64,000 nt of DNA from Raoultibacter phocaeensis (GTDB lineage: Bacteria > Actinomycetota > Coriobacteriia > Coriobacteriales > Eggerthellaceae), in NCBI RefSeq assembly GCF_901411515.1, contig NZ_CABDUX010000001.1, positions 620,001 through 684,000 of the forward strand, read 5' to 3'. Under the pieces are notes generated by a model. That model worked only from the letters and a program-made list of their open reading frames with translations. It did no database searches and had not been told where the DNA came from. Shown in pieces: positions 20,380 to 24,539 of the stretch. A program made the position numbers and the translations under genes. Position 1 is the first letter of the stretch. Each line of letters opens with the position of its first letter.

Positions 20380-20425
20380 TTCTATCGACTAGTCTTGAAT
20401 CGGTAGTAGTATGACGAGCCTTATA

Positions 20426-21618
20426 TCCGCCCTAGTCGTTCCACATCTCCGGGCGCACGAGCGTCGGGTCCTTGACCCTGTTGGGGAAGTAGTCGAGGCA
20501 GTCGCCCTCGCGGTAGACGTCGGCGGTGGAGCAGTGCAGGCCGCCGCCGAACGGGTAGGCGTCGCGCAGGTCGCAGGGGATGACGTTCATGCCGAGCTTG
20601 TCCATCTGCTCCTGCTGGTAGACCTCGGAGGCCTCCACGATGACGGTCTTGGGGTCGAGCACGAGGCAGTTCATGGACAGCCACACCGAGCTGTAGCACA
20701 GCGCCGGCGGCTCGTCGTGGGCGGGCTGGGCGGCCTCGACGATCTGCCAGTCGTTGGCCTCGAAGATCGCGCGCTGCTCCTCGGGGAGCTTGCGGTGCGG
20801 GTTGTTGATGATCAGGCCCGGGCGCAGCGGCACGAAGGTCGCGTCGATGTGGATCGGGTAGGGGTCGCCCGGGAAGTTCACGGCGTGCACGCGCAGCTCG
20901 GGGTAGTAGCGCTGGAACCAGTCCATGGCGGCGCGGTTGGTGGTCAGGCCGTGCTGGATGAAGAGGTCCTTGCCCATCCTCATCACGTCGGCGGCGTCCC
21001 ACATGGGCTCGACCTCGGTGGTGACGAAGTCCTTGTTGGCGGTGCGGACGAGGCGCTCCTCGAGGGTGATCTTCTCGTCGTAGTAGTTGTGCTTGTAGGA
21101 CGCGTCGGTGAGGCGCGGGCGGGGGGCCTGGGTCCACTTGAACTCCGGGTCCTCGTCGAAGTACTGCTTCATGAGCGGCCAGTAGGCCAGGTACTCGAAG
21201 TAGCGGCAGCGGAAGGAGTTCGCGGAGGCCATGATCTCGTTGCCGACGGTGAGCAGGATGTCGCGGGGCGGCATGCAGGTCATCATGGAGTCGTTGCGGA
21301 AGTCCGGCGTGCCGATGGCCTGGTTCCACTGCAGGGGCGTCGGGCGGTCGACCTTCACGCCGCGGTCCTCGAGGATCTTAACGAGGTTCTCGAGGCACTC
21401 GTTGCCGCGCTCGACGGTGGCCAGCGGGCGCAGGCCCCACATGCCGCGCATCTCGGAGTCGACGGGCACCTTCTCGGAGGTCGCGGGCTCCTCGGGCGGG
21501 ATCATCGAGTTGTCGCACCTGCCCACGATGACGTGCTTCAGCGGGTCCCAGTCGTTCCAAGAGCTGACTATCTTCGCCATGACAGTCTCCTTTCCGGAAG
21601 GCGGCGCCTTCCAAGATT
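20426..21618 (-). repeat. Inverted long repeat, copy 2 (1193 bp)
   Basis: This is the reverse complement of 1937-3129, identical where checked at both ends and at several inner points, including the unusual GTTAAG. The pair is inverted and encloses 17.3 kb (3130-20425). Confidence 0.95.
20432..21580 (-). CDS. Glycine-amidinotransferase (AGAT)-family protein, copy 2
   Basis: The 382-residue protein is identical to the product of copy 1, with the same catalytic Asp, His244 and Cys350. The leader hairpin and ribosome site are also identical. The upstream control region is quite different: a sigma70-like promoter (21755-21783) overlapped by tandem 20-bp repeats instead of a TetR-type dyad. It is closed by its own terminator, with an EamA carrier gene beyond. 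Two identical enzymes under two promoters suggest that dose or condition matters, or that gene conversion/inversion keeps them the same. Confidence 0.9.
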   Translation of the reverse strand: MAKIVSSWNDWDPLKHVIVGRCDNSMIPPEEPATSEKVPVDSEMRGMWGLRPLATVERGNECLENLVKILEDRGVKVDRPTPLQWNQAIGTPDFRNDSMMTCMPPRDILLTVGNEIMASANSFRCRYFEYLAYWPLMKQYFDEDPEFKWTQAPRPRLTDASYKHNYYDEKITLEERLVRTANKDFVTTEVEPMWDAADVMRMGKDLFIQHGLTTNRAAMDWFQRYYPELRVHAVNFPGDPYPIHIDATFVPLRPGLIINNPHRKLPEEQRAIFEANDWQIVEAAQPAHDEPPALCYSSVWLSMNCLVLDPKTVIVEASEVYQQEQMDKLGMNVIPCDLRDAYPFGGGLHCSTADVYREGDCLDYFPNRVKDPTLVRPEMWND

Positions 21619-21754
21619 AAAAGTGGCGCACTACGTACTGCAGCGTACCGACATGAGTGTCGCGGCTGAAAGAACACGGGTTTGGGAGTATCTTGGTTAT
21701 GGCAACCGCCCGATTCCTCCGTGACATTTCCCTGTCAGTTTTGCCCTTGCCTAA

Positions 21755-22100: not shown

Positions 22101-24455
22101 CTAGTGCGAAACCCTCGATTCTCTGATAGCGCGGTACGCCGCTCCGTACATGCCGCAATCGTTTCCGAGCGTAGACGCCACGATAGGGGTTTTGCGGCAT
22201 ACCTCAAGGGCGTAGCGCTTGTAGCATTCGCGGATGGTTTCGAGATAGACATCGGCCGAGGCGGCCATGCCGCCTCCGAGCACGAACAGGTCGGGATCGA
22301 CGAGGCAGGCCACCTGCGAAAGACCAAAAGCGAGCCGATCTGCGAAGCGCTCGACAGCCGCTTTCGCCGCCTTGTCCCCTGCAGCTGCAGCATCGAACAC
22401 ATCTTTTGCGCTTTCGTAACCCCCGCACCCGTCGCTCGCGAACTCGCCCGCCATGCGCACGAGCGCCCGCGACGAAGCGAACTGCTCGAGGCATCCTGTA
22501 CGCCCGCACCCGCACACGATATCGCTTCCTGGTTCGACACACAGATGGCCGATCTCGCCGACAGCGCCGTTCGAACCGGTTACCAGCTTTCCGTTTACGA
22601 CCACGCCCGCCCCGACTCCGGTTCCTAAGGTCAACAATGCGAACGTCGACGCACCGAATTCCCTGGCGCTTCCCGCCCATTGGTCGCCGAGCACCGCCGC
22701 ATCGGCGTCGTTTATGACGTGAATCGTAGCACGCGGGAATTCCGCACGAAGAAACGCTTTGTAAGCGCGCAAGTCGAGATCGACGTTCGGGCAGAGCTTC
22801 AGCGACTCTTCGGCCGCCACCATGCCGGGCACCGCAAGCCCGATCGCGCAGATGCGTTCGGCAGCTACGCCGTTGCGGGCAAGCATCATCTGGTACGCCT
22901 CGGCAAGCTTAGCCGACGAGCCGTCCGCCCGCACGGGAGCCGTTGCGAACGTAGAGCGGGCAACGAGCTTTCCGTCTTCGGTGAATACGCCTATTTTAGT
23001 GGACGTACCGCCCACATCGATGCCGAGTACCGCATCGGCTCCCTCTTCGAGCGATTCGTCGGCCGTCTTTCGCAGCACGTCTGGCCCGTCCTCACATTCG
23101 GGGCAAGGGGCATCCGCCGCTTCACCCGAGTCGAAGCTTCGAGGTTTGAACAGCCGACGTGCCCCCATCACGAGCACGAATACCCCGACCGCATCGACGA
23201 GCTTGTCGAATGCGAGCGCACAGAAGCAAGCGATCGGCGCAGGCACGCCCCAACCAGCCAGAAGGCCGAAGTAATCGACGGTTCCTGCCGTCGTGGGCAC
23301 ACCGCCATCGAACGCATAGCACAACCCCAACGAGATCACGGCGCTCACCCCGACAAGAAACACGAGGGCGATCCCGATCGAGCGCATCGTGATCTTCCTG
23401 CCCCGCGCAAAGAGAATACCGTACACGAGTGCGACAATCGCCGACAGCGCGAAGTACAAGAGATTGCCCGCGTTCTGGAACACGACCGCCAGATACATGT
23501 TGTTCACGAACCCGACGATGAGCGCCGCAGCCGGCTCGAGCATAATCGCCACAAGAGCGGTACCCGCAGTATCGAGCCATAACGGTAAGCCCGACCATGC
23601 AGCAAGGTTGTACAATACGATATCGAGCACGATGCCGAGAACCATGAACTTGAGATAGAAGACCACCTTGGGATGGGCTTTCGCGTATGCGCCCACGCTC
23701 GCATACGATCCGAGGGAGCGGCCCTTGTACATGCCTGGCGTAGCCGAGTGGAAGTACGCAACGCGATCTTCCTGGCTCTTGCGCACCTCTTCGAGAAAGC
23801 CTCCCGTAATGATGCCGGCGGGAAGCGCGATGACCGCTATGCCGAACAGCGAGGAAATCATCGATATCCCCATGCCGAGATCGGTATGGGGCGCGATATC
23901 GCCGTAGCCCACCGTGGTGAGCGCCGTCGTCGCCCAGTAGAGCGCGACGAAGAACGTGTTGAACGTATCGGGTTCGTTCACGAACATGATGAGCCCCGAC
24001 ACGAAGATGTAGGCGATGGCCACCACGAGCACCGCAAGCAGCGTGCGGCGCTCCGATTTGAGCACGTTGGTCACGATCATGAGGTTTTTGGAATAGCGGA
24101 AAATCTTCGCGACGCGCAGTACACGCAAGAACCGAAACGTTTGCGGCAGAATGCCGAGCGAAGGAAGGATGGCGAGCAGATCGATGATGGCAAGCGGGGT
24201 GAACGGATATTTCGCGAAGGTTTTCCAGCCCTTCTTCCCCGTTTTGAAATCGTGCGTGATCCACCGCATGATGTAATCGAAGAACAGGATATAAACCGTC
24301 ACTACGTCGAGCATGGTGAGGAGCGTATCCTGCTCCTTGAACATGAGCGGAACCAAACTCGCGAATGCAACGAATACGATGAAGATGTCGTAGGCGCGGC
24401 TGAGGCCATCGCCCGGTTGCGCCCTCTGGACGATTTCGAACATGCGCTTTCTCAT
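22101..24455 (-). CDS. Three-part fusion: voltage-gated K+ channel, ECF-S-like membrane module, ROK sugar kinase
   Basis: The product is 784 aa from the ATG at 24455. Part 1 (about 10-230) is a six-helix voltage-gated channel with an S4 segment FRFLRVLRVAKIFR and a K+ filter TTVGYGD (about 180-186). Part 2 (about 263-435) has five or six helices with LPLWLDTAGTALVAIMLEPA, like ECF-transporter S components and related sensors. A short CPEC-containing linker follows. Part 3 (about 476-784) is a ROK kinase with the phosphate loop GIDVGGTSTKIG, the DADA segment and the zinc motif CGCGRTGCLEQF, as in glucokinases. The frame is open throughout, so it is one protein. The start at 24521 is less likely, because it falls inside a promoter-like stretch similar to that of amidinotransferase copy 2. 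Confidence 0.8.
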   Translation of the reverse strand: MRKRMFEIVQRAQPGDGLSRAYDIFIVFVAFASLVPLMFKEQDTLLTMLDVVTVYILFFDYIMRWITHDFKTGKKGWKTFAKYPFTPLAIIDLLAILPSLGILPQTFRFLRVLRVAKIFRYSKNLMIVTNVLKSERRTLLAVLVVAIAYIFVSGLIMFVNEPDTFNTFFVALYWATTALTTVGYGDIAPHTDLGMGISMISSLFGIAVIALPAGIITGGFLEEVRKSQEDRVAYFHSATPGMYKGRSLGSYASVGAYAKAHPKVVFYLKFMVLGIVLDIVLYNLAAWSGLPLWLDTAGTALVAIMLEPAAALIVGFVNNMYLAVVFQNAGNLLYFALSAIVALVYGILFARGRKITMRSIGIALVFLVGVSAVISLGLCYAFDGGVPTTAGTVDYFGLLAGWGVPAPIACFCALAFDKLVDAVGVFVLVMGARRLFKPRSFDSGEAADAPCPECEDGPDVLRKTADESLEEGADAVLGIDVGGTSTKIGVFTEDGKLVARSTFATAPVRADGSSAKLAEAYQMMLARNGVAAERICAIGLAVPGMVAAEESLKLCPNVDLDLRAYKAFLRAEFPRATIHVINDADAAVLGDQWAGSAREFGASTFALLTLGTGVGAGVVVNGKLVTGSNGAVGEIGHLCVEPGSDIVCGCGRTGCLEQFASSRALVRMAGEFASDGCGGYESAKDVFDAAAAGDKAAKAAVERFADRLAFGLSQVACLVDPDLFVLGGGMAASADVYLETIRECYKRYALEVCRKTPIVASTLGNDCGMYGAAYRAIRESRVSH

Positions 24456-24518
24456 GCTTGCCGATGCGCGGCACGCCCGAAGCGGCCTCGCGAAACCCCC
24501 TTTTATAAGGATACCCAT

Positions 24519-24539
24519 CATTGTTCACTGCAATGATAC
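24519..24539. promoter_or_regulatory. Dyad upstream of the channel-kinase gene, similar to the 20-bp repeats
   Basis: ATCATTG and CAATGAT flank TTCACTG. Read on the minus strand, TTGCAGTGAACAATGATGGG resembles the copy-2 amidinotransferase promoter region (TTGCACTTGAACAAAAATGA and on). A shared regulator is possible. Confidence 0.45.

Follow-up and report, generated by a model that had tools for sequence, protein, structure and literature searches.

A predicted voltage-gated K+ channel joined to an S-component-fold domain and a ROK sugar kinase in Eggerthellaceae

Does a single protein of Raoultibacter phocaeensis combine a voltage-gated K+ channel, a module resembling the S components of ECF transporters and a ROK kinase, and what might such a molecule do? 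A sequence-only reading of the window (the whole 64,000-nt stretch of DNA that was analysed) had proposed one frame of this build. The frame is open without a break at nt 22101-24521 (- strand, 806 aa), and a conserved ATG at 24455 gives a product of 784 aa (MRKRMFEIVQ), with the same boundary as in that reading (Table 1). The unbroken order channel, S domain, ROK kinase was found in seven Eggerthellaceae genomes (the window's genome, G001, G004, G032, G128, G137 and G141). They span five genera, including Raoultibacter, Eggerthella, Gordonibacter and Rubneribacter, and the carriers, which are gut bacteria, appear to include Raoultibacter timonensis, Eggerthella sinensis, Gordonibacter sp. 28C and Rubneribacter badeniensis. 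The distribution is patchy, as other Eggerthella and Gordonibacter genomes are without the fusion gene. All seven proteins begin with MR(K/E)R, and in five of them a TACACT-type -10 element was detected upstream of the conserved ATG. These are Eggerthella-, Gordonibacter- and Rubneribacter-type genomes, in which the fusion mRNA is probably leaderless, since the -10 element is only about 8-11 nt from the start codon. Neighbouring genes at the locus specify ferredoxin-type, RelA/SpoT, GGDEF, MFS and EamA proteins. Elsewhere in the window, an amidinotransferase-like gene (20432-21580, -) without a Pfam match at 1e-5 is fully overlain by a 437-aa antisense ORF (20411-21724, +), which is probably a high-GC shadow frame.

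Table 1. Features of the fusion gene in the window.
Feature	Coordinates (nt)	Strand	Basis or remark
Whole fusion ORF, 784 aa	22101..24455	-	Conserved start; frame open to 24521
Predicted Kv-type K+ channel, residues 1-229 (S1-S6)	23769..24455	-	Pfam Ion_trans; phmmer; AlphaFold helices
S4 voltage-sensor segment, basic residue every third position	24087..24140	-	Six R/K charges
Selectivity filter TTVGYGD, residues 180-186	23898..23918	-	TT(V/I)GYGD in all fusions
S-component-fold domain, residues 254-440, six helices	23136..23696	-	NCBIfam; AlphaFold; structure matches
PLWLDTAGT motif, residues 291-299	23559..23585	-	Between S-domain helices 1 and 2
S-ROK linker	23037..23135	-	Fast-evolving, dN/dS 0.45-0.89 across fusion pairs
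ROK sugar-kinase domain, residues 474-784 + stop	22101..23036	-	Pfam ROK; 2qm1 match
Predicted catalytic Asp583 (NDADAA motif)	22707..22709	-	Alignment to solved ROK kinases; invariant in fusions
GExGH...CxCGxxGCLE zinc/substrate motif, residues 633-657	22485..22559	-	Alignment

In the full-length AlphaFold model (mean pLDDT 81.4), two sets of six membrane helices are accompanied by a ROK fold; the pTM is 0.51, so that the arrangement of the domains relative to each other is not trusted. Fold comparison of this model with the PDB gave match lists filled by ROK chains, and the assignment of the channel therefore rests on sequence. A Pfam search of the fusion protein returned Ion_trans (1.8e-22, over the cut-off), and KCNQ channels were matched by phmmer at about 1e-19. 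Six transmembrane helices with a basic S4 are present, as expected of a 6-TM voltage-gated K+ channel, the R/K charges of S4 being at positions 108, 111, 114, 117, 120 and 123 (784-aa numbering). The filter reads TT(V/I)GYGD across all fusions, consistent with K+ selectivity, so that both hallmarks noticed in the sequence-only reading, the S4 segment and the TTVGYGD filter, were confirmed. The protein has in common with 6-TM voltage-gated K+ channels (Ion_trans, KCNQ-like by sequence) the S4 charges, acidic residues in S2 and S3, the TTVGYGD filter and the PAG hinge in S6, but is without an RCK or cyclic-nucleotide domain and carries instead a further membrane domain of six helices, followed by a sugar kinase.

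The second group of helices matched the NCBIfam model ECF_S_CD3073 (NF045596) at residues 291-452 of the 806-aa frame (E 4e-8), with a score of 33 bits against a curated cut-off of 180. In the Pfam search, PF12822 was not reported for the fusion protein; a standalone S relative passes this model (38.0 vs 30.7). A search of PDB sequences with the S-domain profile gave zero matches, and fold comparison alone succeeded. Modelled by itself, the S domain reached a mean pLDDT of 92.9, and its best solved match was RibU (Z 13.9, rmsd 2.7, 152 residues aligned); ThiT, FolT and BioY (Z 13.9 to 11, RibU included) and PanT were also among the solved matches. S components and BtuM accounted for all of the best 20 structure matches (Z 13.9 to 8.3, rmsd 2.7-4.2, 147-163 residues aligned), and the next row stood at 7.0. 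Judged by this model, the middle module has the six-helix S-component fold, which bears out the likeness to ECF S components that had been seen in the letters. The fold and a (L/V)PLxLDTxGT-type signature are common to the fusion and the CD3073-family putative ECF S components (NF045596), whereas the fusion scores far below the curated cut-off, lacks AXXXA and is outside an ECF operon.

The remaining part was recognised by Pfam as ROK (PF00480; 4.1e-57, 194 bits vs a cut-off of 22.9), and its best structure match was the glucokinase of E. faecalis (2qm1, Z 32.9, 29% identity). It shares the whole domain, with the catalytic and zinc residues, with ROK hexokinases (2qm1, 3vgk, 3vov), but differs from them in being a C-terminal, membrane-anchored domain, in having NDADAA in place of NDANAA, and in scoring 199 bits with the ROK glucokinase model TIGR00744, under its curated cut-off of 260. 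Five free ROK relatives that were checked also score under this cut-off (167-231). In a clade of free ROK kinases (L011, L013, L017, L018), the third Cys of the zinc motif is replaced by His (CGCGGxGHLEQ).

The reading that we favour, with confidence about evenly balanced, is a voltage-gated K+ channel modulated by a receptor, the S domain, and carrying an active ROK hexose kinase as its tail. The protein would form a tetrameric channel with a voltage-dependent K+ current, the opening of which the fused S-component-fold receptor would modulate. The S domain would probably bind a sugar-like solute; channel gating would shift with ligand at this domain or with the kinase's substrate state, K+ conductance and membrane potential would change in turn, and the ROK kinase on the cytoplasmic tail would phosphorylate sugar at the membrane. 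The identity of the ligand, gating by the S domain, the kinase substrate and the coupling between the parts are points that we infer rather than observe. Conservation of the architecture in seven species means that a single molecule may link sugar metabolism to the electrical state of the membrane, and the coupling to voltage or K+ flux suggested earlier is plausible. A stronger version, advanced tentatively, is a bacterial chanzyme, in which an S-receptor-gated K+ channel would be allosterically tied to a kinase for the same external sugar.

The history of the gene bears on whether the parts are coupled. Free channels of the same type are present in other families, and the channel tree gives the channel+S form a single origin (support 100/98). 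Eight channel+S proteins occur without ROK. Two of these are in Clostridia MAGs (L089:3971-5308 and L090:1361-2713), which takes the two-part channel beyond Coriobacteriia; the named-genome scan was queried with two channel peptides and covers fusions with similar channels. On the ROK tree, the ROK domains of the fusions cluster together, separate from the remaining ROKs of the order, and the free ROK of genome G041 falls within their group. On the channel tree, the triple fusions have no firmly supported place among the channel+S forms, and it is mainly the ROK tree that argues for ROK having been added only once. By these phylogenies the protein was built stepwise, channel and S domain having joined once and ROK having been added later. 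No separate operonic ROK was found beside the channel+S genes in other genomes.

G041 belongs to the same Gordonibacter genus as G137. Its ROK gene occupies the syntenic position and retains the promoter and ATG of the fusion gene; channel and S domain have been removed by a clean in-frame deletion. The possibility that this gene represents an ancestral separate state was rejected, since it nests in the fused clade and shares locus and promoter with the fusions. The kinase is evidently useful without the channel and does not need it, as G041 keeps the one after losing the other, and this separability means that channel-kinase coupling may be weak. Pairwise dN/dS across fusion pairs was 0.11-0.19 for the channel, 0.15-0.31 for the S domain and 0.13-0.30 for ROK, and the value for the S-ROK linker is above those of all three. 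Channel, S domain and ROK are under purifying selection, and fast evolution is confined to linkers. Together with the recurrence of the order in seven genomes, this puts the architecture far outside what chance would give. An alternative that we hold to be unlikely, though the likeliest of the rivals, is that ROK was appended by chance and is tethered only, the channel with its S receptor and the kinase working independently without allosteric coupling, and the fusion serving to co-regulate expression and to fix a cytosolic enzyme at the membrane. A linker that is long, fast-evolving and variable in length would suit this explanation, as would the lone ROK of G041 and the persistence of kinase-free channel+S proteins. 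It accords poorly with the maintenance of the fusion across five genera under selection on every part, where return to separate genes amounts to one deletion only.

What the S domain contributes can be approached through its relatives. PLWLDTAGT is the most conserved signature common to standalone and HD-GYP-fused S domains, and in the form (L/V)PxWLDTxGT it is common to the fusion, the N-terminal S domains of HD-GYP proteins and standalone S proteins. The same kind of S module heads HD-GYP enzymes, in some cases with a beta-propeller between the two, and this N-terminal placement points to its use as a receptor input. Putative c-di-GMP phosphodiesterases of the HD-GYP (HD_5) type with an N-terminal S-like domain are encoded in Eggerthellaceae at L030:9250-11424, L031:1433-3562, L075:5006-7234 and L077:6571-8799. 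Proteins of about 1200 aa that combine an S domain, a two-component-regulator beta-propeller (Reg_prop, Y_Y_Y) and HD-GYP are found at L080:7932-11522, L081:6420-10016 and L082:4472-8221 (the layout was scanned with Pfam in L080 and L082 only). Most standalone S relatives, which are from other families, adjoin EcfT, and some also adjoin PfkB sugar kinases, a PRAI-like enzyme or a LacI-PfkB fusion. In the last, a LacI-type regulator and a PfkB sugar kinase form one protein (L032:10537-12438, L135:4159-6030). Its gene is divergent from an ECF operon with a standalone S component, and the protein is a candidate regulator-kinase of a sugar ECF transporter. The comparison with the HD-GYP fusions and the standalone operons suggests that the module acts as a receptor and that its ligand is of sugar type. 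The sugar ligand of the sequence-only reading thereby gains indirect support from the operons of standalone relatives, S proteins that are only about 20-35% identical.

The same reading had also spoken of sugar capture. In such a scheme, the S domain would carry its ligand across the membrane, either unaided or together with an ECF module of the genome, ROK would trap it as a phosphate, and the channel would balance charge. The modelled S-component fold, four EcfT genes elsewhere in the window's genome and the EcfT and sugar kinase genes beside standalone relatives lend it some credit, and transport by certain solitary S components needs no ECF module (PMC11109136). Set against these points, helix 1 of the S domain has LKFMV instead of the EcfT-docking motif AXXXA, which is kept in only one of the fusions examined (AAVMA), in a test that discriminates weakly because the canonical form is missing from the standalone relatives too. 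No ECF module genes are among the neighbours at the locus, and most relatives of the domain in Eggerthellaceae have HD-GYP outputs or channels as fusion partners. We regard capture as improbable and as less likely than sensing.

A receptor-modulated channel with an active kinase also has to be weighed against a ROK part that is no enzyme but a metabolite sensor for the channel, in the manner of the ROK repressors NagC and Mlc. Such repressors retain the fold and sugar binding, and the model also matches repressors (5f7r, Z 30.9), but kinases are the best matches, and the catalytic Asp (D583), both phosphate loops (GIDVGGT, TLGTGVG) and the zinc residues H637/C648/C650/C655 (784-aa numbering) are kept in all seven fusions, as befits the complete ROK kinase with zinc motif that had been described. 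The window's genome (99% complete) has one PTS EIIC, and neither a second ROK above the cut-off nor a glucokinase of PF02685 was found in it. Some hexose may thus depend mainly on the fused ROK for its ATP-dependent phosphorylation. Its being the sole ROK of the genome, and the retention of ROK without a channel in G041, also speak against a mere sensor, which we consider very improbable. Expression of a free ROK from an internal start was rejected, as no start with a ribosome-binding site is common to the fusion genomes in the linker. That three genes were joined artificially in assembly or sequencing can be dismissed, as seven species were assembled independently, single-contig genomes included, and no fusion genome has a stop codon in the join (23037-23135); the case that would have undone the single-protein claim, separate genes in relatives or an error at the joins, thus failed, and the only relative with ROK by itself is the secondary deletion in G041.

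The S-component fold is known as a receptor domain with many outputs (Partipilo & Slotboom 2024, PMC11109136), and the only fused membrane transporter partner named there is NRAMP, with channels and ROK unmentioned. In the 5TMR sensor histidine kinases of that survey the same fold serves as input module, with varied partners; in the present protein it stands behind a K+ channel and not before a histidine kinase. Neither the NXR motif nor a histidine kinase domain of the 5TMR-LYT type is present in the fusion, which has PLWLDTAGT at the H1-H2 junction instead. The open-access literature yielded no S-component-channel or channel-ROK fusion and nothing relevant on CD3073 or membrane-ROK fusions, in keeping with the earlier remark that no protein with this order had been described. 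The animal chanzymes offer a functional analogy. TRPM7, TRPM6 and TRPM2 are ion channels with a covalently attached cytosolic enzyme, as in the fusion, but are not relatives, since the channel and enzyme families are unrelated, and the bacterial enzyme is predicted to act on sugar.

S-component folds were previously known as transporter subunits and histidine-kinase receptors, and a single ancestral joining of S domain to K+ channel would extend their receptor use to direct control of an ion channel. The protein offers a small, clonable system for studying signal transmission by an S component, and the coupling is directly testable through a natural series of channel, channel+S, channel+S+ROK and, at the same locus, ROK alone. 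With the added ROK, it is by analogy a candidate bacterial counterpart of the animal channel-enzymes. If the chanzyme reading is true, sugar supply would directly set membrane potential, and the protein, together with its kinase-free relatives from Coriobacteriia and Clostridia, would make up a class of S-component-gated K+ channels.
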